Assembly: GCA_029782355.1 (NCBI GenBank)
Contig: JAKOUY010000036.1
Coordinates: 66,193 to 130,192 of the forward strand
DNA length: 64,000 bases
Source of the DNA: Actinomycetes bacterium
GTDB taxonomy: Bacteria; Actinomycetota; Acidimicrobiia; Acidimicrobiales; Ilumatobacteraceae
Direction of reading: 5' to 3'
In this document: positions 1 to 13,548 of the stretch, one piece after another
Numbering within the stretch: position 1 is the stretch's first letter
How the letters are laid out: every line of letters begins with the position of its first letter
Translations under genes and position numbers: made by a program
Notes under the pieces: model-generated
Told to the model about the DNA's origin: nothing
Seen by the model: only the letters and a program-made list of their open reading frames with translations
Databases searched by the model: none

Positions 1-1194
1 CACCGTGCCGGCGTCGGCATCGACCACGTCGACCACCTTGGTCAGCAGCCGGGTGGTGTTCTCGTTGCCCGACTCGTGGGCCAGCTTGGCCGCCTGCCCG
101 AGGAGCACCGTGGCGGTGCGCTCGTCCCCGGCGGCCTTGGCGGCCAGACCGTCGCGGATCGCCGCGGCCAGCTGGGCCTGACCCGTGTAGTGGGCGACGG
201 CTGGGTCGATGCGGGTGGTCTTCTCCACGTCCGTGCTCCACAGCGCCCGCACCAGCCCCTTGGCCAGCACCTGGTCGTTGACGACCACCTCGACCCGCGC
301 CGCCAGGCGCTCCTGGCCGGGATCGGCCACCGGCACGCGCACGGCGATGTGGTAGTCGCGACTCTCGTCGCTCCATGCCCCCGTGGGGTATTCACGGATC
401 AGTGGGGAGATCGACGTCGCCTTCGGCGTCAGGTCCTCCACCGAGGGGGCCACCTGGCGGACGAACAGGACGTCGCTGCCCTGCGGGGCCCACACCCGCA
501 GGCGGGCATCGGCGACGCCCCGCGACATGGCGGTGCGCATCATCTCGGCGAAGTCGGCCTCCAGGTCGGCTGGCTCGGCGACGATGTCGACCGAGCCGAG
601 CAGCGCGTCGGCGATGCCGCGCAGCTCCTCCACGTCCCAGTCGGCCCCGATCCCCCGGCAGTCGCACTGGAACTTGCCGCGGGCCTTGCGCAGCGCATTG
701 GGCAGGACGGAGGCGGCCTCCCCCTCGATCCGCCCGTCGGTCAGCAGGATGGCGTGGCATTGCGGCGACCCGGGAACCTGACCGAACAGCTCGGTCGCCG
801 CAGCCACCCAGGCGCCGATGGCCGTCGCCCCGCCGCTGCGCAGCTGGCCGATGGCCGCCAGGGCATCCGCCCGCGTCCCGGCGGACATTCGCACCATGCC
901 GGGGTTCGGCGGGTAGACCATCTGGGCGATGCTGTGCCCGCTGAGCACGGCGAACCAGGTGCCGTCGAGGATCTCCTCCACCGCCACCGATGCCGCCCGG
1001 CGTGCCGCGTTGATCTTGGCGACGGGCATGTCCATCGAACCGGAGGTGTCGACGATGACGATCTCGGCCGCGGCGGTGCCGCCCTGCCCGGCCGTGCCGG
1101 CGCCGGCGCAGCTGATCGAGACCACCGCATGGGCGTCGGTGGTGCCTTGGGCGAGGTACTCGTTCTGGAACACCTCGGCTGTGAAGTCGGCCAT
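1..1194 (-). CDS. VWA-domain protein (3' end outside window)
   Basis: A von Willebrand factor A domain protein. Starting at the ATG at 1194, 398 codons are open to the window edge, so the C-terminus is missing. A MIDAS motif is visible at residues 49-53 (DTSGS), with further metal-site elements in GGATAIG and LLTDGR, so the metal site looks intact. VWA domains usually mediate protein-protein contacts. There is no signal peptide, so the protein is probably cytoplasmic. It lies 19 bp downstream of the PP2C phosphatase gene and is the last visible gene of the GlnX-GlnH-PknG cassette. I infer that it is a scaffold or partner of the kinase/phosphatase pair; the sequence does not prove this. Confidence 0.85.
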   Translation of the reverse strand, partial: MADFTAEVFQNEYLAQGTTDAHAVVSISCAGAGTAGQGGTAAAEIVIVDTSGSMDMPVAKINAARRAASVAVEEILDGTWFAVLSGHSIAQMVYPPNPGMVRMSAGTRADALAAIGQLRSGGATAIGAWVAAATELFGQVPGSPQCHAILLTDGRIEGEAASVLPNALRKARGKFQCDCRGIGADWDVEELRGIADALLGSVDIVAEPADLEADFAEMMRTAMSRGVADARLRVWAPQGSDVLFVRQVAPSVEDLTPKATSISPLIREYPTGAWSDESRDYHIAVRVPVADPGQERLAARVEVVVNDQVLAKGLVRALWSTDVEKTTRIDPAVAHYTGQAQLAAAIRDGLAAKAAGDERTATVLLGQAAKLAHESGNENTTRLLTKVVDVVDADAGTV

Positions 1195-1213
1195 GGAACC
1201 TCCCGCGCCGAGA

Positions 1214-2305
1214 CTAGTGAGGGCTGACCCGGGCCAGTGCCGCCGTGATGTTGTCGTGACCGCCCTGCGCATTGGCGAACTCGACCAGGTGGGCCGCCAG
1301 GGTGGCGGGCGAGGCGGTCGAACCGACGTGCTCGGCGGCGCGGTCCATCGCGGCGCGCAGCGCGGCCGGGGAGCTGGCGTAGTTCCACAGGCCGTCGCTG
1401 ACCACGGCCACGTACCCGGACGTGTCGAGGCGCCGGGCGGCGATCTCCGGCGTGGCGTCGACCGAGTCGGCACCGAGCCACCGGGTGATCGTGTGGAACC
1501 GCGGGTCCACCTCGGCGTCGGCCTGGGACATCCCCGACCGGACCATCTCCGTGCCGAGCGAGTGGTCGACGGTGAGCTGCTCGCCCTCGCCCTCGTCGGG
1601 CAGCCAGTAGGCCCGTGAGTCCCCGCACCAGCCGACGTGGACCAGCCCGGGCGTGACCACGGCCGCCACGAACGTGCACGACGGTGGCTCCGGCGGATCA
1701 CCGAGGATGTGGGCCGCACCGACGGCTTCGGCGTTGGCCGCCTGCGCCGCCTGACGGAGCACCCCGTCCCAGTGGCGGATCGCCGCGGCCTCGCCGGACC
1801 CCTCCACCGCGGGTGCCGCGGCCAGGACCTGGCAGGCGGCGCGGGATGCGGCCAGCGCGGCCCGGTCGCTGTCCGGTGCGGTGGTCACCCCGTCGCAGAC
1901 CACCATCACCCCGCGGCTGGCGTCGGCGGTGGCCGCCAGGGCCATGGCGTCCTCGTTGCGCGGGTGGGCGATGCCGCGGTCGCACACCCCGGCCAGCCAC
2001 GGCGCCGGTTCCTCGCTCCAGTGGTCGCGGGGGCTCGGCGCCTTGACCCCGCACTCGGTGCAGTAGCCGTCCTCGAGCGCCCCACCGCACGCCCGGCACG
2101 CCGCCGCCTCACCCGTGGGTCGTGGCATCGGTCCGGTGGGGTCGGCGGTCGCGTCCGCCGGGTCGGCGGGCGAGCGGGTGGGTGGATCCGCCGGTGGATC
2201 GACAGCCCCGCCGATCGGCGATCCGCAGGCCTCGCAGAAGGCGTCCGCCGGGTCGTGGGTCGCTCCGCAGGCCGGGCAGGCCGCGGCCGCCGGAGCCTCG
2301 GTCAC
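1214..2305 (-). CDS. PP2C-family Ser/Thr phosphatase with two N-terminal zinc ribbons
   Basis: Predicted 363-residue PP2C (PPM) protein phosphatase. The GTG start at 2305 overlaps the kinase stop codon by 4 nt (GTGA), which fixes the start and indicates translational coupling. Two zinc ribbons come first: Cys10/13/24/27 and Cys70/73/82/85 (CRACGGALEDGYCTECG). A Pro/Asp-rich linker separates them. The PP2C domain runs from about residue 108 to the end, with metal-binding motifs around NEDA and VCDGVTT. The second ribbon resembles the N-terminal ribbon of the neighbouring PknG-like kinase. The likely role is reversal of PknG phosphorylation, on the kinase or its substrate; that substrate assignment is inference. 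No membrane segment is seen. Confidence 0.88.
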   Translation of the reverse strand: MTEAPAAAACPACGATHDPADAFCEACGSPIGGAVDPPADPPTRSPADPADATADPTGPMPRPTGEAAACRACGGALEDGYCTECGVKAPSPRDHWSEEPAPWLAGVCDRGIAHPRNEDAMALAATADASRGVMVVCDGVTTAPDSDRAALAASRAACQVLAAAPAVEGSGEAAAIRHWDGVLRQAAQAANAEAVGAAHILGDPPEPPSCTFVAAVVTPGLVHVGWCGDSRAYWLPDEGEGEQLTVDHSLGTEMVRSGMSQADAEVDPRFHTITRWLGADSVDATPEIAARRLDTSGYVAVVSDGLWNYASSPAALRAAMDRAAEHVGSTASPATLAAHLVEFANAQGGHDNITAALARVSPH

Positions 2306-4545
2306 GTCGGCGTCCTCGGGCGGGCGTCGTTGGCCCGATCGATCATCGCCCAGCGCTGGCGCGGATCGCGCTCCAACCGAGCGGCGTCTCGCCAGGCCTG
2401 CTCGAGGGCCAGCCGCAACGAGCGCTCGTCGGCCGCCGACCCGGCGATCACCGCCGTGGACGGGCCGTGGCGCTGTACCTCGACCAGAGCGTGCTGGAGG
2501 ATGCGGATGTGCAGCGCCTGGCGCTGGGCCGGGTCGAGCGCGGCGCGATCCAACTCGATGGCGGCGGCGGACAGATCGTCGATCCCGGCCGGCCGGTCGG
2601 CGGTCCCGGCCAGCAGCAACGCCCGCTGGTGACGGGCCTCGCCGTAGGCCCGGCTGGTGGTCGGGATGCCCTCCAGGGCGGCCAGGGCCGCGTCGCGGTC
2701 GCCACCGGCCGCCGCCAGGTGGGCCAGGCCGAACTGCCCGGCGGCGACGTAGGACGCATCCGTCCGGGCACACACCGTGTACAGCCGGGCGGCGATGTCC
2801 GCCTCGCCGCCCAGCTCGCAGGCCCGGGCCAGCGCCAGCTTGGGGGCCAACTCGCCGGGGATCTGCCCGTAGACGGCATTGAACGCCTGGATGGCGTCGT
2901 GCGGCCGATCGGCGTGGAGGGCCACGAGGCCCTGGAACCACACCGCCCGCCACTCCCATGGATCGGCGGCCAGGGCGTCGTTGATCGCCGCCACGGCCAG
3001 TTGCTCGTCGTCGCCGTCCAGCGCGGCGTGGGCTTCGGCCAGCATCACGCCCATGGTCCGCTGCGGCGCGGCGCTGAGCGCCTCCAGTCGGGCCTGCGGG
3101 TCCACCGCGGTGATCGACGACAGGTACGCGGCCTGCGGGTCGTCCGGGTCCGTGCGCAGCTCGGGCAGGTCGGCCCAGGGCACCCCGTCGACGGGGATGC
3201 CGGGTGCTTCGAAGGCGCGGGAGGGCGTGCTGGCGGTGACTGCACCGTGGGCCGATGCCGCGGTGACCTCGCGCAGCACGCCCATCAGCTGGTCGCGCAT
3301 CTCCTCGGCGGTCTGGAAGCGGTCCTGCGGGCGCGGTGCCGTGCCGCGCAGCAGGAAGCGGTACAGCGAGTCGTGCTCGGCGAACACGGCCACGTCGGCC
3401 GGCCCGGGCAGCGTGGTCTCGAAGGTCGTCTGGTAGCCGCGGAACTCGAAGATCAGCACGGCCAGCGTGCGCGCCACGGTGTACAGATCGCTGGCCACCG
3501 AGGGACCGTCACTGGCCACCTCGGGCGCTTGGAATCCCACCGTGCCGTAGATCGCCGAGCTGTCGTCGTCGATCCGCCGCACGCCACCGAGGTCGATCAG
3601 CTTCAGGCTGTCGCCGACCTGGATGACGTTGGCCGGCTTGAAGTCGCAGTACAGGAGCCCGAGCCCGTGCAGGTAGCTGAACGCCGGGAGGATCTCGACC
3701 ATGTAGGCGATGGCCTGATCCACGGGGATGCCGGAGAAGACCCCACCGTTGGCGGCCATCCGGTCCTTGAGGATCTGGTTCAGCGAGCGGCCGCCGACGT
3801 ACTCCATGACGATGTAGGACGTCCCGTCGGGCGCGGCGACGAAGTTGTAGATCTCGACGATCAGCGGATGCTCGACCTCGGCCAGGAACTGCTTCTCGGC
3901 CACGGCGGCGCGTGCCGCATCGGGATCACCGGCGTTCAGGAGTCCCTTGACCACCACCCAGCGATCGTTGAGGTTGCGGTCGCGGGCCAGGTAGATCCAC
4001 CCCATCCCGCCGTGAGCCAGGCACCCGACGATCTCGTACTGCCCGCCGAGCAGCATGCCCGGGCGCAGGGTCGGATCGAAGTCGAACGGAGTCCGGCACT
4101 TGGCGCAGAACCCCTTGGTGCGCCCCGGCTGACCGTCACGGCCACGTCCCACGGGGGCGTTGCATGCTGCGCAGAACCGCTTCTCCTCGGCCACCGTCGG
4201 CGGATCCAGCAGGAGCTGGCGGGGGTCGATCTCCGGCACCGGTGGGACGTGGGTGAGCCCGGCGCCGAGCCGCGAACTGGCCGTCGCCGACCCCAGCCGG
4301 CGGGTCGGCCGGCTTGCCGGGCTGGCCGGCGTGCGCGACGAGCCGAGCGGCACGGCGCCCAGCCCACTGGTGGCCGACCGGCTGATCGCCGAGGGAGCAT
4401 CGGCCGGATCGGCTGGGACCTCGGCATCAGGTCCTGCGGCGGCCGCGGGGGCCAGCCCGCAGACGTCGCAGTAGCCGTCGACGATGCTGCCCGAACACCC
4501 GCCGCGGGTGCACGGCGGGGCGGCGCCGCGTGCCGGCGGGGTCAT
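2302..4545 (-). CDS. pknG: PknG-type serine/threonine protein kinase
   Basis: A 747-residue soluble kinase with the full PknG layout. An N-terminal ribbon (Cys12/17/26/29; GCSGSIVDGYCDVCG) is followed by a rubredoxin-like metal site (Cys125/128/147/150). The kinase domain starts near residue 168, with catalytic Lys200, catalytic-loop Asp301 (CDFKPAN) and DLG in place of DFG at Asp318. A TPR-like helical region fills about residues 480-747. In mycobacteria and corynebacteria PknG phosphorylates GarA/OdhI and so controls 2-oxoglutarate dehydrogenase and glutamate metabolism. No GarA homologue is in this window. Overlaps of 4 nt on both sides make it part of a tightly coupled operon with glnH and glnX. 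Confidence 0.95.
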   Translation of the reverse strand: MTPPARGAAPPCTRGGCSGSIVDGYCDVCGLAPAAAAGPDAEVPADPADAPSAISRSATSGLGAVPLGSSRTPASPASRPTRRLGSATASSRLGAGLTHVPPVPEIDPRQLLLDPPTVAEEKRFCAACNAPVGRGRDGQPGRTKGFCAKCRTPFDFDPTLRPGMLLGGQYEIVGCLAHGGMGWIYLARDRNLNDRWVVVKGLLNAGDPDAARAAVAEKQFLAEVEHPLIVEIYNFVAAPDGTSYIVMEYVGGRSLNQILKDRMAANGGVFSGIPVDQAIAYMVEILPAFSYLHGLGLLYCDFKPANVIQVGDSLKLIDLGGVRRIDDDSSAIYGTVGFQAPEVASDGPSVASDLYTVARTLAVLIFEFRGYQTTFETTLPGPADVAVFAEHDSLYRFLLRGTAPRPQDRFQTAEEMRDQLMGVLREVTAASAHGAVTASTPSRAFEAPGIPVDGVPWADLPELRTDPDDPQAAYLSSITAVDPQARLEALSAAPQRTMGVMLAEAHAALDGDDEQLAVAAINDALAADPWEWRAVWFQGLVALHADRPHDAIQAFNAVYGQIPGELAPKLALARACELGGEADIAARLYTVCARTDASYVAAGQFGLAHLAAAGGDRDAALAALEGIPTTSRAYGEARHQRALLLAGTADRPAGIDDLSAAAIELDRAALDPAQRQALHIRILQHALVEVQRHGPSTAVIAGSAADERSLRLALEQAWRDAARLERDPRQRWAMIDRANDARPRTPT

Positions 4546-5567
4546 CGGCCGGCCCCGGTCGGTGGCCGCCGATTGACGGCGTCGACGTAGCGCTGCACCG
4601 CCTGGCGGGCGGCGGCCAGGTCACAGGGCGCCTGCCACAGCTCGTCGGCGGCGGCACGGTACAGCGGTTCGATCGCCGGATCCTCCGCCCCGCCGCGGCC
4701 GGCCGCCTTGTCGCGGAAGGCCTGGAGCAGCCCGCGCAGGTCGTCGCGCTCGGTCAGCGGTGCCTGCAGGCGGCGCTGGGCCTCGGCCAGCGCCGCCTCG
4801 ACCCGCCCGACCTGGTCCAGGTAGGTCCGGACCGAGGCCCGCTGGGCGCTCCACGGTCGCTCGCCGTCGACCTCCGGTGGCGGGCCGAGCCGGTCGACGG
4901 AGGGGATGCCGAGGCGCGGCGGCGAGCTGATCTTCGCCCGGCACCTCGCGGCCAGCTCCGTGACCCGTTCCTCGGTGGCGCGCAGCTCGTCGAGGTGGTG
5001 CTCCACCAGCGCCAGGCGGTGCAACGCATCGTCGCGCTCGGCGGCGAGGCGTTCCAGCCGTTGTCGCAGCGCGCCGGCCTGGCCGGCGACGTCGGCGATC
5101 CGGTCGCGCCGGGCCAACCGGTCGGCCAGCGCCGCAGTGGCGTTGACCTCGCTGCCCAGCTCCTCGGCCAGCGATCGGGCGACCCGCAGATCGGCGTCGG
5201 CGGACGCGGCGGCCTCGGCCTCGGCCAGGGCCGCGGCTTCGAGGGCGCCGAGCCGTCGCTCGACGTCGTCGAGGGCCTGGTCGATCTGCCCGGCGGCGTC
5301 GGCCACACTGCTGCCCACCGGCCGGCCGAGGTCGTCGCCCACCGCCTGGGCGAACAGGGCCTCCACCCGGGCGCCGTCCGTCGTCGCATCGATCTCCTCG
5401 AAGCGCGCCGCCAGGGCCTTGCGGGCGACGAACGCTGCAGCGATCAGGCGCTGATCGTCTGCCGAGGCGTTGGCCTTGGCACGCTCGTCGAGCGCCAGCA
5501 GGCGCTCGGTGCAGCGGGCCAACCAGTCGTGCCACTGGTCGAGCTCGACGGCCGGGCGGCGGCTCAC
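4542..5567 (-). CDS. coiled-coil protein between GlnH and PknG
   Basis: A 341-residue protein of unknown function. The GTG start at 5567 overlaps the glnH stop by 4 nt and its own stop overlaps the pknG ATG by 4 nt, so it is embedded in the operon. It is rich in Ala, Leu, Glu, Asp and Arg, with long stretches of heptad-like spacing (about residues 90-230), suggesting an extended coiled coil. No signal peptide, transmembrane segment, Cys cluster or catalytic motif is visible. Position suggests a cytoplasmic adaptor linking the membrane sensor GlnX to the kinase, but this is inference. I do not recognise the family. Confidence 0.8.
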   Translation of the reverse strand: MSRRPAVELDQWHDWLARCTERLLALDERAKANASADDQRLIAAAFVARKALAARFEEIDATTDGARVEALFAQAVGDDLGRPVGSSVADAAGQIDQALDDVERRLGALEAAALAEAEAAASADADLRVARSLAEELGSEVNATAALADRLARRDRIADVAGQAGALRQRLERLAAERDDALHRLALVEHHLDELRATEERVTELAARCRAKISSPPRLGIPSVDRLGPPPEVDGERPWSAQRASVRTYLDQVGRVEAALAEAQRRLQAPLTERDDLRGLLQAFRDKAAGRGGAEDPAIEPLYRAAADELWQAPCDLAAARQAVQRYVDAVNRRPPTGAGR

Positions 5568-6616
5568 GCCGACCTGCCGTAGATCGGCACCGGCGGGGCG
5601 GGCACGGTGCCGGTCAGCGCGCCCGTGTCCAGCAACCAGTGCCGGTAGCTGTCCGCCCATCCACCGCTGGTGCGCAGTTGCTCGAGCACGGCGTTGACGA
5701 AGCGGACGAAGTCGACCCGGTTCTTGGCGATGCCCAGGCCGTAGGGCTCGTCGGTGAACCGCTCGCCGACCACGGCCGTGTTCGGGTCCTGGGCGGCGAA
5801 CCCGGCCAGCACGGTGTCGTCGCCGGTGATCGCCTCGGCGTCGCCCTGCTGCATGGCCACCAGGCAGTCGGTGATGTCCGGCTTGGCCACGATCCGGGTG
5901 CCGCCGTCGGCGTTGAGCCGCGGGTACTTGTCTGCGTTGCGGATCTCGTCGATGTTGGTGCTGCCCTCGGGCGCGCAGACCCGCGCCGCCGGATCGGCTT
6001 CCAGGTCGTCGATGCTGCGGAAGCTGGCCGAGCGGTTCACCAGCACCTTCTGCCCGGCGGTGAAGTACTCGCCGGAGAAGGCGATGCGCAGCCATCGCCG
6101 GCAGTTGATCGTCATCGTGTGGGCGACGAGGTCGACGCCGCCGTGGTCCGCCCCGGCCTCCAGCTTCGGCAGCCGCTGGGCGTAGGTGATCACCCGGTAC
6201 TCGATGCGCTGGTCGCCGTCGGCGCCGAAGATCGCCCGGGCGACGGCCTTGACCATGTCGATGTCGAACCCTTCGATCGCCCCGCTGATCGGGTTGCGCG
6301 CCCCGAACAGCAGCGTGTCGCCGCTGACGCCGGCGATCAGCCGGCCGCGGCGCTGGATGGCCGCCATCGTCGAGCCGGCCGGCATCTTGCCCGGCGCCGG
6401 CAACGACGCCAGCGGGTCGTAGGAGCGCCGTGGATCCTCGGCCGCCTGTGCCGCGGTGCACTCCGGCTGGGCGGCCGGCGCCGTGGTCGGCGTCGTGGCC
6501 ACGGTGGCCTGCACCGGGTCGGCCAGGTGCCGATCCGCGGCGCACCCGCCCAACGCCACCACGGCGATGGCCAGGGCCACGCCGAGCGGGCGGCGACGAG
6601 TGTCCCGCCGACTCAT
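5564..6616 (-). CDS. glnH: GlnH-type amino-acid-binding lipoprotein
   Basis: A 350-residue exported substrate-binding lipoprotein. Basic residues 1-9 precede a hydrophobic stretch and the lipobox ALGGC with Cys25 as the probable lipidation site. The mature part has the periplasmic-binding-protein type 2 fold of polar amino-acid binders, with motifs such as GFDIDMVKAVARAIFG and GDAEAITGDDTVLAG. There are no ABC transporter genes next to it. Instead it overlaps glnX, the coiled-coil gene and pknG. In mycobacteria and corynebacteria GlnH binds Asp/Glu and signals through GlnX to PknG. The same sensing role is likely here. Confidence 0.93.
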   Translation of the reverse strand: MSRRDTRRRPLGVALAIAVVALGGCAADRHLADPVQATVATTPTTAPAAQPECTAAQAAEDPRRSYDPLASLPAPGKMPAGSTMAAIQRRGRLIAGVSGDTLLFGARNPISGAIEGFDIDMVKAVARAIFGADGDQRIEYRVITYAQRLPKLEAGADHGGVDLVAHTMTINCRRWLRIAFSGEYFTAGQKVLVNRSASFRSIDDLEADPAARVCAPEGSTNIDEIRNADKYPRLNADGGTRIVAKPDITDCLVAMQQGDAEAITGDDTVLAGFAAQDPNTAVVGERFTDEPYGLGIAKNRVDFVRFVNAVLEQLRTSGGWADSYRHWLLDTGALTGTVPAPPVPIYGRSA

Positions 6617-7995
6617 CGGTACTCCGCCAGCCGTTGGCCGAAGCCTCGCCCGGCGAGCAGCGCGGCCAGCAACCCGCCGATCAGGGCGAGGATCCGCAGC
6701 GCGCCCAGCCAGTCGAGCGAGGCGCCCAACCCGTGGCGCGCCGCGCCGGCCTGCTGCCCGATCAGCGAGCGGGCGGCAGCGTCGAACTCGTCGAACGATC
6801 GGGTCAGGGCGCTCTCCGTGGCGGGGGCCAGGGTCGAGGTCACCGCCTGGTCCCAGTCACCCGCATCGTCGGTGTTGCGCATCTGCTGGTGAGCGAGGAC
6901 GTAGGCGTCGTAGATCTGACGGACCTGGCACTCGGCCGCCGGCGTTGGTGGCGCCGGCTCCGGCGACTCGCACGCCGCGGACAGCACGGCGCCCACCGTC
7001 GCCGAGGACCGTTGCCAGGCGGCCTCGTTGGCGGCGCCGTTGCCCCGGTTGATCAACGTCAAGCCCTCCTGCGAGCGGGCGTCGAAGGCGGCGGCCCGAG
7101 CCTGGGCGACCCGGTCGGCGGCGGCCAGGTCGTCGCCCACGGCCGCCGTCGCCCGGTCGAGGGACGAGGTCAGCCCGACGACCACCAGGAGTGCAGCGAC
7201 GACCATCACCAGGCCGGCCCCGGCCAGCGGGACGTTGACCTGGCGGTGGAAGCGGCGGGCCAGCCAGCGGCTGGCAGCGACCACCGCCGCCAGGGCGGCG
7301 ACGGCGGGGAGGATGACCCACAGCCGGTTGCCGGCGGCAGCGTCCAGCCGGGCGTTGATCGCGGCGCGGGTGCGCTGCTCGACGGTGGCCAGCGCCGGAA
7401 GGATCGAACCGCTCAGCACCCCATTGGCTTGCCGCTGGTAGGCCGCCCCGACCGGGAACCCCTGGCGGTTGTTGGCCCGGGCCTGTTCGACGAGGCCGAC
7501 GTAGCGGCCGACATCGGCGCCGGCGGTGGTCAGCGCCGCGGCGTCCGCCGCCGGGAGCTGCTCGCTGACCGCCACCAGCCCGCCGGCTGCGGTCTCGATC
7601 GCCGCGGCGTAGGCGGCGCGGGCCTCGGCGCTCTCCTGCCCGCCCTCCAGGTAGGCCCGGCTGGCCAGGGAGTCGGCGCTGACCGCGGCGACGCGGATCT
7701 CCTGGACGCGCAGCAGGCTGTCGGCGGCGAGGCGCGCCTCGCGCAGGTCGGCCTGGTGCCGGGCGACGCCGAGGGCGGACAGCAGGCCGACCACCACGGC
7801 CAGCACCACCGTGCCGACCTGCCAGGCGCGCAGGCGCGCCGGCGTGCTGGCGAGGATCCGGGCGATGGCGCTCGAGGCCACCGACCCCGAGCCCGAGCCC
7901 GAGCCCGGGCTCGACGACGCGGGAGATGGCGGCGACACCGGCGGTGTGCCCGGCGCCGGCGGGGAGGACCCCACAGGGGGGACGGCGAGACTCAC
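6613..7995 (-). CDS. glnX: GlnX-type four-helix membrane sensor protein
   Basis: A 460-residue integral membrane protein, GTG start at 7995. Four hydrophobic segments are visible: about residues 55-80, 223-247, 256-278 and 430-450. The first and last pairs flank two extracytoplasmic helical regions, the layout described for GlnX of corynebacteria. The N-terminus is a low-complexity Pro/Ser/Gly tail, encoded partly by four tandem CGAGCC units near 7888-7911. It is the first gene of the operon and overlaps glnH by 4 nt. The inferred role is to relay GlnH ligand binding across the membrane to PknG. Loop sequences diverge quickly in this family, so the assignment rests mainly on context and topology. 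Confidence 0.85.
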   Translation of the reverse strand: MSLAVPPVGSSPPAPGTPPVSPPSPASSSPGSGSGSGSVASSAIARILASTPARLRAWQVGTVVLAVVVGLLSALGVARHQADLREARLAADSLLRVQEIRVAAVSADSLASRAYLEGGQESAEARAAYAAAIETAAGGLVAVSEQLPAADAAALTTAGADVGRYVGLVEQARANNRQGFPVGAAYQRQANGVLSGSILPALATVEQRTRAAINARLDAAAGNRLWVILPAVAALAAVVAASRWLARRFHRQVNVPLAGAGLVMVVAALLVVVGLTSSLDRATAAVGDDLAAADRVAQARAAAFDARSQEGLTLINRGNGAANEAAWQRSSATVGAVLSAACESPEPAPPTPAAECQVRQIYDAYVLAHQQMRNTDDAGDWDQAVTSTLAPATESALTRSFDEFDAAARSLIGQQAGAARHGLGASLDWLGALRILALIGGLLAALLAGRGFGQRLAEYR

Positions 7996-10460: not shown

Positions 10461-11831
10461 TCAGATCTGCTCCCAGTAGCGGCGCAGCTCCCAATCGGTC
10501 ACGGTGCGGTTGAACGCCATCCACTCGGCGCGAGCCATCGTCAGCACGTGGTGGTGGACCTCGTCGCCGAAGCACTCCCGGGCGATGTCGCTGCGCTCCC
10601 ACCGATCGATGGCGTCGGCGATGTTCCACGGGATGCGCTCGATCTCGTCGCTCTCGTAACCGTTGCCGGCGAACGGGGCCCCGAGCTCGAGACCGTGGCG
10701 GATCCCGTACAACCCACCCGCCAGCGTCCCGGCGAAGGCGAAGTAGCTGTTGGCGTCGCTCCCCGGGATGCGGCACTCGACGCGCGTCCCGGAGCCGTGG
10801 CCGACCTTGCGGAAGCCGAGGGTGCGGTTGTCGATGCCCCAGCCGATGCCGGTCGGCGCCCACGAGCCCGGTTGGAATCGCTTGTAGCTGTTGATGGTGG
10901 GCGCCCACAGCAGGCTGAAGTCGCACGCCGTGGCGATCAACCCGGCCAGGTACTGACGGAACGTCTCGCTCATGCCGTGCTCGGCGTCATGGTCGTGGAA
11001 CACGGCTCGGGTTCCGTCTGGCGACCACAGGCTGGAGTGGATGTGGCACGACGATCCGGTGTCGGCGAAGTCGTACTTGGCCATGAAGCTCACCGAGCGG
11101 CCGGCGAAGTGGGCGATCTCCTTGGCGGCCAGCTTGTACACGCTGTTGCGGTCGGCCATCTCGACTGCGGTCGTGTAGTCGAGGTTGATCTCGTGCTGGC
11201 CGCGTCCGGCCTCGCCCTTGCTGAACTCGACCGGGACGCCGGCGGCTTCCAGGGCGCGACGGATGGCCCCGATGACGTACTCGTCCTTGGTCGTCTGCAG
11301 GACGTGGTAGTCCTCGACCCACGGCGAGTGCGGGCGCAGGTCGCGGTAGCCCTTGTCGTGGGCCTCGTCGTAGGTGTCACGGAACAGGTAGAACTCGATC
11401 TCGCTGGCCACCTTCGGCAGGAAGCCCGCCTCGGCGGCCGCCTCGACCTGGCGACGCAGCACCGTGCGCGGGGCCACCTCGATCAGCTCCCCGGTCTCGA
11501 CGTCGTGCAGATCGCAGATCACCATGGCCGTGCGCTCGACCCACGGCAGGGCTCGCACGGTGCCCCAGTCGGGACGGGCCAGCATGTCGCCGTAGCCCTG
11601 GTCGTAGCTGGCGAAGCGGTAGCCGGCCACGGGGTTGTTGTCGATGTCGCAGGCGATCAGGTAGTCGCAGTTCTCGGTCCCGTCCTCGGCGACCCGTTCG
11701 ACGAAGAACCGACCCGTGGTCCGCTTGCCCACCAGGCGGCCCTGGAGGTCCGGGAACACCATCACGACGGTGTCGATCGACCCGTCCTCGATACGAGCCT
11801 GGAGATCGGAGCGGGTCAGGAGCGCGGCCAT
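10461..11831 (-). CDS. glutamine synthetase-like ligase (type I fold)
   Basis: A 456-residue GS-family enzyme from the ATG at 11831. Hallmarks include EIEFYLF (metal-binding Glu), GQHEINLDY, the GSSCHIHSSLW nucleotide/ammonia region, the NSYKRFQPGSWAP glutamate-flap region and RVECRIPG. I do not see the adenylylation Tyr loop (NLYDLPPEE-like) of assimilatory GlnA, so it is more likely a GlnA3/GlnA4-like gamma-glutamyl-polyamine or -ethanolamine synthetase. That specificity is inference. It lies 34 bp downstream of the DUF885 peptidase gene and converges with the EEP gene. Confidence 0.88.
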   Translation of the reverse strand: MAALLTRSDLQARIEDGSIDTVVMVFPDLQGRLVGKRTTGRFFVERVAEDGTENCDYLIACDIDNNPVAGYRFASYDQGYGDMLARPDWGTVRALPWVERTAMVICDLHDVETGELIEVAPRTVLRRQVEAAAEAGFLPKVASEIEFYLFRDTYDEAHDKGYRDLRPHSPWVEDYHVLQTTKDEYVIGAIRRALEAAGVPVEFSKGEAGRGQHEINLDYTTAVEMADRNSVYKLAAKEIAHFAGRSVSFMAKYDFADTGSSCHIHSSLWSPDGTRAVFHDHDAEHGMSETFRQYLAGLIATACDFSLLWAPTINSYKRFQPGSWAPTGIGWGIDNRTLGFRKVGHGSGTRVECRIPGSDANSYFAFAGTLAGGLYGIRHGLELGAPFAGNGYESDEIERIPWNIADAIDRWERSDIARECFGDEVHHHVLTMARAEWMAFNRTVTDWELRRYWEQI

Positions 11832-11865
11832 CGGCGCGACATTAGGTGCCGGGAGCCGGCGGCCG

Positions 11866-13548
11866 TCACGCCGGCTGGAAGGCGTCGAGTTCGGCGCGCA
11901 GCTGGTCGAGGCCCACCGCCCCCTTCGCCAGGGCGAAGGAGTGGAACTGGCGCAGGTCGAACGCCGCACCCAGCCGGGCCATCACCTGGTCGCGCGCCCG
12001 CTGCCACTCGCGCTGACCGATCTTGTAGGAGATCGCCTGGGCCGGCCACCCGAGATACCGATCGATCTCGCTCTCCATGTACTCGCGGGTGTTGCCGGTC
12101 TCGACCATGCTGAACTCGACGGCGAGATCGCGGCTCCACACCTCCCCGCCGTGGAACGGCCGGCCGTCGCTCAGCACGGTGCCGTCGGGGATCGACAGAC
12201 CGAGGTGCATGCCGATGTCGACGATGACTCGCACGGCGCGCAGCTGCTGGCCGGCCAGGAAGCCGAGACGATGGTCGGGGTTGGCGAACCAGCCGAGCTC
12301 GTCGCAGAGCTGCTCGGCGTACAGCGCCCAGCCCTCGCCGTGGCCGGGGATGAAGGCGTGACGCTGGTAGCGGGACAGGTGCTCGGCCTGCGTCAGGGCA
12401 GTGCCGAGTTGCAGGTGGTGCCCGGGAACGGACTCGTGGTAGCAGGTCGTGACGTCCGACCACATCGGGAACCGGCTCCGTCCGAGGGTCGGCCACCACG
12501 TCCGCCCTTCGCGACCGAAGTCCTCCGAGGGCGGGGTGTAGTAGGGCGCAGCGCTGGACCCCTCGGGCGGCAGCATGACCGTGCACCGGTCGATCACCGG
12601 AGCGATGTCGAAGTGCTCGGCGGCGCGGGCCAGGGCGTCGTCGGTCATCTCCTGCAGCCAGCGGCGGTAGGCCTCGGCCGTGTCGAGCGAGCGACCGGGG
12701 TCGGATTCGAGCAGGTCGACCACCTCGGGGAACGTCGCGCCCGGCAGGATCTCGGCGCACACCTCGGCGATGGCGGCGCGCAGCCGGGCGAACTCGTCCC
12801 ACGCCCAGCGGTACATCTCCTGCGGGTCGAGGTCGGCGCCGAGGTGGGCGCGGACGTGCAGCCGGTATCGATCGGCGCCGCACCCGTCGAGCGGATCGGC
12901 GGCCGGGGCGTAGACATCGCGCAGGTACGCGGCGTGCTCGGCCAGGGCGGCGTCGGCGCCCTGGCCGGCGTGCCGCAGGGTGTCAACCAGGTCGGTGCCG
13001 ACACCGGCCCGTGCCGCCTCGTCGGCCAGCGAGGCGAACCAGCCGTCGTCGGACCACCGCTGCGACTGGGTGGCCTCGGCCAGTGCCTGACGACGCGATC
13101 CGCGGATGCCCTGGGCCAGGGCGGCGTCCAGCGTCGCCCGACCCCCGGCCAGGCACGGCCCGACCTCGGCCAACCGGGCGGCGATGTTGTCCCACGCATC
13201 GCCACCGTGGCGCGGCATCATGTCGAACACGGCGCGCACGGCTTGCGTCTCGCCCAGGTACTCGCCCAGGTGACGTCCCCACTCGCCGGCCTCGTGGAGG
13301 GCGATCTCACTGCCCAGGCGCTCGGCCAACAGGTCACGGCACAGCCGGTCGTCCTCGCCGGTCACCTCCAGATCGGCGAGCGCGGCCAGGGTGTCGACGT
13401 CGAGCCGGTGACGGGCCTCCACCCCGATCGGGGAGAAGTCCGGGAGCTGGCGGTCGTAGGCCACCTCGCCGACGACGGTGGCGTTGATCGGGTGGAGACG
13501 CAACGATTCGGTCACGTAGTCGTCGGCCAGTTGGAAGATGGGACTCAT
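11866..13548 (-). CDS. DUF885-family zinc metallopeptidase-like protein
   Basis: A 560-residue DUF885 protein. ATG 13548 is preferred over the upstream GTG at 13557, which would overlap the neighbouring spacer. The zincin-like motif HESVPGHHLQ is present near residue 350, followed by HGEGWALYAEQL, which carries the third-ligand Glu. Members are cytoplasmic or lipoprotein metallopeptidases of mostly unknown substrate. No signal peptide is present here, so a cytoplasmic location is likely. It starts 10 bp after the stop of the GGDEF-EAL gene, so co-transcription is likely, though a shared function is not obvious. Confidence 0.88.
   Translation of the reverse strand: MSPIFQLADDYVTESLRLHPINATVVGEVAYDRQLPDFSPIGVEARHRLDVDTLAALADLEVTGEDDRLCRDLLAERLGSEIALHEAGEWGRHLGEYLGETQAVRAVFDMMPRHGGDAWDNIAARLAEVGPCLAGGRATLDAALAQGIRGSRRQALAEATQSQRWSDDGWFASLADEAARAGVGTDLVDTLRHAGQGADAALAEHAAYLRDVYAPAADPLDGCGADRYRLHVRAHLGADLDPQEMYRWAWDEFARLRAAIAEVCAEILPGATFPEVVDLLESDPGRSLDTAEAYRRWLQEMTDDALARAAEHFDIAPVIDRCTVMLPPEGSSAAPYYTPPSEDFGREGRTWWPTLGRSRFPMWSDVTTCYHESVPGHHLQLGTALTQAEHLSRYQRHAFIPGHGEGWALYAEQLCDELGWFANPDHRLGFLAGQQLRAVRVIVDIGMHLGLSIPDGTVLSDGRPFHGGEVWSRDLAVEFSMVETGNTREYMESEIDRYLGWPAQAISYKIGQREWQRARDQVMARLGAAFDLRQFHSFALAKGAVGLDQLRAELDAFQPA

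Follow-up and report, generated by a model that had tools for sequence, protein, structure and literature searches.

What does the protein kinase PknG control when its gene stands in an operon larger than the three-gene system by which it is known? In mycobacteria and Corynebacterium glutamicum, the control of GarA/OdhI by GlnX, GlnH and PknG is established (passages in PMC6069109 and PMC9769921). The 64,000-nucleotide (nt) stretch of Acidimicrobiia DNA analysed here, hereafter the window (G000:C14:66193-130192, G000 being its genome), opens with six minus-strand genes that encode this system together with a helical protein (a coiled-coil protein in the initial annotation), a PP2C phosphatase and a von Willebrand factor A (VWA) protein. 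The initial annotation had presented the six as an extended, self-contained PknG circuit of fixed stoichiometry. All six genes lie where they were placed and are of the kinds described, with profile matches for all but the helical protein, but the set was incomplete: a seventh gene, encoding two zinc ribbons and a forkhead-associated (FHA) domain, lies outside the window. The VWA gene itself extends 93 nt beyond the window start, with its last 30 residues, including a conserved tail, outside; an artefact of the window edge was ruled out, the operon continuing on the genome contig.

In our judgement the chances are about even that this conserved seven-gene operon is an amino-acid-controlled phospho-switch with an output like that of the archaeal ArnA/ArnB pair. 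The genes keep their set, order and coupling pattern across relatives, with intact catalytic and binding residues, and the VWA protein has an ArnB-like fold, as seen in a structural model and a solved orthologue. In the scheme that we infer, covering every molecular interaction, phosphosite, ligand and downstream output, the GlnH lipoprotein would bind an amino acid outside the cell and GlnX would transmit this signal through the membrane to PknG, next to which the helical protein is a likely adaptor. PknG would phosphorylate Thr/Ser residues in the VWA protein's C-terminal tail, the zinc-ribbon FHA protein would bind this tail once phosphorylated, in the manner of ArnA with ArnB in Sulfolobus, and PP2C would reset the modification. 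A further PknG substrate may be GarA, whose gene lies elsewhere in the genome.

Conservation and coupling of the seven genes

Conservation was surveyed at three levels. Among the best 80 VWA loci from named genomes (taken from the matches listed; more exist), 49 carry all seven genes on one strand in the same order, with complete loci in Nocardioidaceae, Propionibacteriaceae, Cellulomonadaceae, Kineosporiaceae, Microbacteriaceae and Intrasporangiaceae, among others. In 17 of the other 31 a contig end lies too near upstream to show the set; two of these 17, L137 (5.3 kb upstream) and L123 (1.1 kb), have no PP2C gene directly before the VWA gene. The contiguous core of helical protein, PknG, PP2C, VWA and FHA is kept in 58 of the 63 loci of this sample with enough sequence. 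PknG went undetected in L130 because long N runs (3860 N) interrupt the sequence; L133 has PknG and PP2C matching a single reading frame. The profiles used for annotation omitted L050, L051 and L055. Two of the 80 loci are repeats (L067 of G015, L074 of G203) and were left out of the residue, ribbon, eighth-gene, TelA and overlap counts given below; L023, also from G203, was left out of the residue and ribbon counts, from which G203 is consequently absent. No conserved eighth gene was found downstream, the largest cluster comprising 9 of 84 loci.

Within the class, 247 genomes were surveyed, with PknG called by the Pfam cut-off. PknG passed in eight, and four more gave weak matches only. The same eight have GlnX (six over the cut-off, one at 243.5 of 250 bits and one a contig-end fragment), which elsewhere in the class gave only weak matches, in four other genomes; all eight also encode the helical protein, PP2C, VWA and FHA. 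Five (the window's own G000, with G227, G115, G170 and G015) have all seven genes in the same order on a single contig. The genes of G203 and G111 are spread over contigs in a manner consistent with that order, and G223 is rearranged, with glnX on the opposite strand and GlnH not on its short contig.

Across the phylum, 396 genomes were searched with the PknG_TPR cut-off and a threshold of 600 bits for the family of the operon VWA. Of 31 genomes that passed for PknG, 26 scored at least 100 bits and the other five 27 to 49. The 26 comprise 14 of family f76 and 10 of family f71, which we infer to be Mycobacteriaceae and Streptomycetaceae, together with G419 and G000. The family VWA occurs in 0 of the 14 f76 genomes against 12 of the 12 others; genome-wide, f76 has no member, its best hits being generic VWA matches of 55 bits. 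Twenty loci were read, seven of them from the 16 PknG matches in f76, where at most glnX-glnH-pknG was present (once pknG alone) and PP2C, VWA and FHA were absent. The main copies in f71 keep the seven-gene order in 10 of 10 cases, pknG being split over two frames in L048 and the helical gene short in L043, and in G419 glnX-glnH lies on the opposite strand. Two of these Streptomyces-type genomes also hold diverged PknG paralogues, L050 and L051, with most of the set missing; L051 (G268:C1:529000-548900) has a diverged VWA and a helical-protein match and no GlnX, GlnH or FHA match. One of the five weak scorers, G581 (f71; C25:47538-50563), contains PknG_TPR and the family VWA only as fragments, as if decaying. 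Absence or separation of the extra genes in most relatives, the outcome that would have spoken against the initial annotation, did not occur in these surveys.

The genes are also tightly packed. Four consecutive 4-nt overlaps join five of the six genes, as initially described: ATGA at 6616-6613 (glnX/glnH), GTGA at 5567-5564 (glnH/helical gene), ATGA at 4545-4542 (helical gene/pknG) and GTGA at 2305-2302 (pknG/PP2C). A gap of 19 nt separates the PP2C stop from the VWA start, and a fifth overlap (GTGA) couples the VWA gene to the seventh gene. An earlier choice of starts had favoured overlap starts, so that counting start codons of the downstream gene in the -4 overlap was the fairer test; the chance expectation for that frame is about one third. 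In the named loci the overlap start is kept at glnX-glnH in 46/48, glnH-helical gene in 35/49, helical gene-pknG in 48/56, pknG-PP2C in 55/60 and VWA-FHA in 51/75, and at PP2C-VWA in merely 6/71. Junction by junction, this profile is the window's own pattern, and the counts rule out a chance origin of the overlaps. In the 10 Streptomyces-type copies, glnX-glnH has the overlap start in 10, helical gene-pknG in four, pknG-PP2C in two and the remaining three junctions in none. Most overlaps are thus not retained there, which leaves fixed stoichiometry unsupported; the overlaps suggest translational coupling only.

Both enzymes keep their catalytic residues. PknG combines rubredoxin, kinase and PknG TPR regions in one chain, all three Pfam families over cut-off, and its best Protein Data Bank (PDB) match is PknG itself (2pzi, E 3e-127, 655 residues, across 90-744). 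Of its catalytic residues, K200 is present in 84 of 87 sequences (the other three gaps) and D301, N306 and D318 in all 87, the window's included; six of these rows are from f76, L055 being omitted. An N-terminal zinc-ribbon pattern precedes these regions in 74 of 81 sequences outside f76 against none of seven within it. Two of the seven non-f76 sequences without the pattern have a ribbon with Trp replacing Tyr/Phe, and the other five are either fragments or sequences whose starts are broken or doubtful. The metal-site Asp residues of PP2C are conserved in relatives, and the first of its N-terminal ribbons scores 27.5 bits for DZR (cut-off 27.3). The operon PP2C as sole member of its family in the cell was ruled out, a second PP2C_2 match lying near two FHA matches (C4:45318).

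On the sensor side, GlnX belongs to the GlnX family (259 bits for NF058618, cut-off 250) and falls below NF041460, the narrower equivalog for protein kinase G-activating protein GlnX (83 against 780). GlnH is a family 3 solute-binding protein (SBP) with a lipobox, LGGC, from residue 22. Seven named loci without a detectable GlnH retain a diverged GlnX, a natural test of GlnX sensing without GlnH. The helical protein matches no Pfam family at E 0.1, and its SMC-type coiled-coil matches are all below cut-off; its AlphaFold2 model consists of helices only (mean predicted local distance difference test score 89.6), and a fold search gave no PDB match at E<=0.001 (the 28 matches obtained all had E over 1 and were set aside). 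A viral scan with this protein gave six pattern matches, zero confirmed.

The VWA-FHA pair and its proposed archaeal counterparts

The VWA protein is the orthologue of PDB entry 4FX5 (Caci_2163 of Catenulispora acidiphila) over its full length, tail included (E 2.9e-172); a search with the window's sequence matched 4fx5 at E 7e-111, and the AlphaFold2 model of a 77% identical relative matched it at Z 52.1. The same model has the ArnB fold, composed of a vWA domain, a beta-sandwich and a C-terminal helical bundle, aligning with 8s05_A at Z 31.7 over 363 residues with a root-mean-square deviation of 3.2. The ArnB paralogue 5a8j scored Z 26.6, the next row 24.6 and later rows less, mostly single vWA domains. 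Hoffmann et al. 2019 describe 4FX5 as sharing its three-part fold with vWA2, an archaeal paralogue of ArnB, and PknG is not mentioned in the accessible portion of their main text (PMC6509490). The link of the PknG operon VWA to 4FX5 and the archaeal ArnB fold is new here. The metal ion-dependent adhesion site residues D49, S51, S53, T124 and D153 are invariant (96/96), as are S416, T417, T419 and R421 of the tail, which form an S-T-x-T-x-R motif.

The product of the seventh gene has the layout of an ArnA-like partner, with N-terminal zinc ribbons and a C-terminal FHA domain. Its FHA domain is over cut-off (32.9 against 20.7); the ribbons are called by cysteine pattern, with a DZR score of 25.9, slightly below the cut-off of 27.3. 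The phosphothreonine-binding Arg is present in 93/93 FHA proteins of the operon type, Ser in 92/93 and Asn in 90/93, the remainder being gaps. The FHA profile matches the ArnA structures 5a8i and 8s05_C, yet its matches extend to GarA and numerous other FHA domains.

In Sulfolobus, nutrients, acting via a kinase and a phosphatase, set the assembly of ArnA, which carries a zinc finger at its N-terminus and an FHA domain at its C-terminus, with ArnB: phosphorylation of the C-terminal ArnB bundle by ArnC is followed by binding of the FHA domain, and PP2A reverses the step (as outlined in parts of PMC7472852 and PMC12852372). Here, too, a gene for a vWA protein of the same fold adjoins one for a zinc-ribbon FHA protein, accompanied by a Ser/Thr kinase with a repeat region, a Ser/Thr phosphatase and nutrient input. 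By analogy, the VWA/FHA pair with its kinase and phosphatase resembles the ArnA/ArnB/ArnC/PP2A switch, a likely output that the description of the circuit as self-contained overlooks. The two differ in that the present genes are bacterial and all stand in one operon with a membrane amino-acid sensor, the phosphatase is PP2C rather than PP2A, and the candidate phosphosite is a short C-terminal tail.

Several points weigh against the proposed switch. Few genomes of the window's class carry the set (8/247). Among the 14 incomplete named loci left after the 17 near a contig end, seven lack detectable GlnH alone (L090, L096, L104, L117, L122, L126 and L143); L139 has neither GlnX nor GlnH, L142 has GlnX downstream and no GlnH, and both genes are missing or elsewhere also in L059 and G223. 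VWA-FHA or PP2C-VWA-FHA stands apart from pknG in L077, L108, L111 and L135, and, counting L137, VWA-FHA is apart from PP2C and/or pknG in five loci. The absence of PP2C and FHA from f76 was seen at its pknG loci, the genome-wide search there having covered VWA. The sequence match to ArnA is domain-level only, because FHA and vWA domains are common. The tail is not clearly disordered in the AlphaFold2 model (block mean 88 for residues 411-420 and 58 for the last six), and ArnB is phosphorylated in its helical bundle (relevant sections of PMC7472852 and PMC12852372). Sections of PMC12852372 also state that, apart from ArnAB, proteins of ArnB architecture mostly take no part in multi-phosphorylation processes, and name the vWA of C. 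acidiphila as one of the structural orthologues. Finally, the known route of PknG is GarA/OdhI, with GarA phosphorylated at ETTS in Saccharopolyspora erythraea also (a passage of PMC12321487).

Direction of change and competing explanations

The bare glnX-glnH-pknG module was observed in f76 only. A PknG tree of 48 rows, built by a quick method, places the f76 rows in a single clade on a long stem (SH-like approximate likelihood-ratio support 100), and Streptomyces-type PknG falls outside it when the tree is rooted on two long paralogues, a long-branched outgroup that leaves the root weak. The term 'extended' is probably backwards because the bare module is confined to one clade and the other lineages examined, save the two diverged paralogues, have the larger set. 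Loss of four genes in one lineage is likely, not proven, and the three-gene PknG system of the relatives of the tuberculosis bacterium is probably a reduced form of the seven-gene module. A complication is that the same-class PknG rows are not one clade and need four changes on the tree, so that transfer between lineages is likely as well. One source describes the operon arrangement as conserved, citing STRING (in a passage of PMC6069109), and our literature search, which covered open-licence papers, found no paper on the full seven-gene set.

The PknG ribbon and the VWA, PP2C and FHA genes are missing together in f76, which is consistent with, and no proof of, docking on the VWA protein. The zinc ribbons of PknG, PP2C and the FHA protein are likely docking modules, with VWA possibly the docking partner. 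A broader proposal, which we advance tentatively and rate below an even chance, is that the original PknG output in Actinomycetota was an ArnA/ArnB-type switch on a VWA hub docking the ribbons of kinase, phosphatase and FHA reader, with extracellular amino acids setting tail phosphorylation; mycobacteria and corynebacteria would have lost hub, reader, phosphatase and PknG ribbon, keeping GarA control alone.

The alternative that survives best, though we hold it to be rather unlikely, is that the operon works as in mycobacteria: GlnH-GlnX-PknG would control GarA and 2-oxoglutarate dehydrogenase, PP2C would reset GarA, and VWA and FHA would be accessory assembly factors. The sensor, the binding protein and the kinase with its rubredoxin and TPR regions are homologous to those of the established pathway, and the window's genome encodes elsewhere both a two-in-one OdhA and a GarA-like FHA protein (best PDB matches GarA and OdhI, E 1e-29) beside an open reading frame (ORF) like gcvH. 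The interest of the initial annotation in GarA therefore remains sensible, and the ETTS phosphorylation in S. erythraea points the same way. However, the alignment to mycobacterial GarA begins past the N-terminal segment that bears ETTS elsewhere and does not confirm the motif here. The operon differs from the mycobacterial and C. glutamicum pathway by four more genes and an N-terminal zinc ribbon on PknG; the joint absence of VWA, PP2C, FHA and the ribbon from the very clade in which GarA/OdhI control was worked out is left unexplained, as is the invariant VWA tail.

A stress module of the Ter/Tel kind, in which kinase, phosphatase, vWA protein and TelA would respond to envelope stress or toxic anions and GlnH/GlnX would provide the input, is improbable. 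Of the 76 loci that extend 2.5 kb or more upstream of glnX, 54 do have a gene for TelA (toxic anion resistance) there on the same strand (e.g. L026:811-2283), with an AAA ATPase domain in between in L069 and L072; however, TelA has no match in the window's genome and is upstream of glnX in 0 of 10 Streptomyces-type loci. The TerY-P triad joins a vWA protein, a PP2C and a kinase, three types that the operon also encodes, and is not known to include an SBP/GlnX sensor. Ordinary operon linkage, with extra genes of unrelated roles kept together for co-expression only, is very improbable: the separation of VWA-FHA from pknG or PP2C in five loci fits it, but the gene order shared by the window's class, Streptomyces-type genomes and many further families does not, nor does the joint absence of the extra genes and the PknG ribbon from one clade.

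Gene layout, neighbours and significance

The canonical adjacent order glnX-glnH-pknG is interrupted here by the coiled-coil gene, which sits between glnH and pknG.

Table 1. Features of the operon, in window coordinates unless a locus is named
Feature	Position	Strand	Product	Evidence or remark
glnX	6613..7995	-	460 residues, GTG start, four-TM signal transduction protein	NF058618, 259 bits; four hydrophobic segments
glnH	5564..6616	-	350 residues, amino-acid binding lipoprotein	SBP_bac_3, E 1.6e-16; lipobox
Coiled-coil/helical gene	4542..5567	-	341 residues	Upstream of pknG in relatives as well
pknG	2302..4545	-	747 residues	PknG_rubred, Pkinase and PknG_TPR over cut-off
Extra N-terminal zinc ribbon of PknG	4459..4512	-		C12, C17, C26, C29, from sequence
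PP2C phosphatase gene	1214..2305	-	363 residues	PP2C_2, E 5e-15
Two N-terminal zinc ribbons of PP2C	2048..2278	-		C10, C13, C24, C27 and C70, C73, C82, C85
VWA gene	1..1194 in window	-	428 residues, first 398 codons inside window	VWA_3, VWA_3_C
Seventh gene	L009:11504-10797, outside window		Zinc ribbons and FHA domain	GTGA overlap with VWA gene

The operon is flanked by an acyl-CoA dehydrogenase-like ORF downstream of the seventh gene and a hydroxyisobutyrate-dehydrogenase-like ORF upstream of glnX. A glutamine-synthetase-like ORF lies at 10461-11969 of the window, near the amino-acid-sensing operon.

If the three-gene form is the reduced one, half of the circuit, namely a dedicated eraser, a scaffold and a reader, has been overlooked, and the natural substrate of PknG may be a VWA protein. 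If the proposed switch is true, the archaeal ArnAB switch would have a counterpart in bacteria that unites sensor, kinase and phosphatase in a single operon and occurs in tractable hosts such as Streptomyces, and the vWA family of PDB 4FX5 would gain a function.

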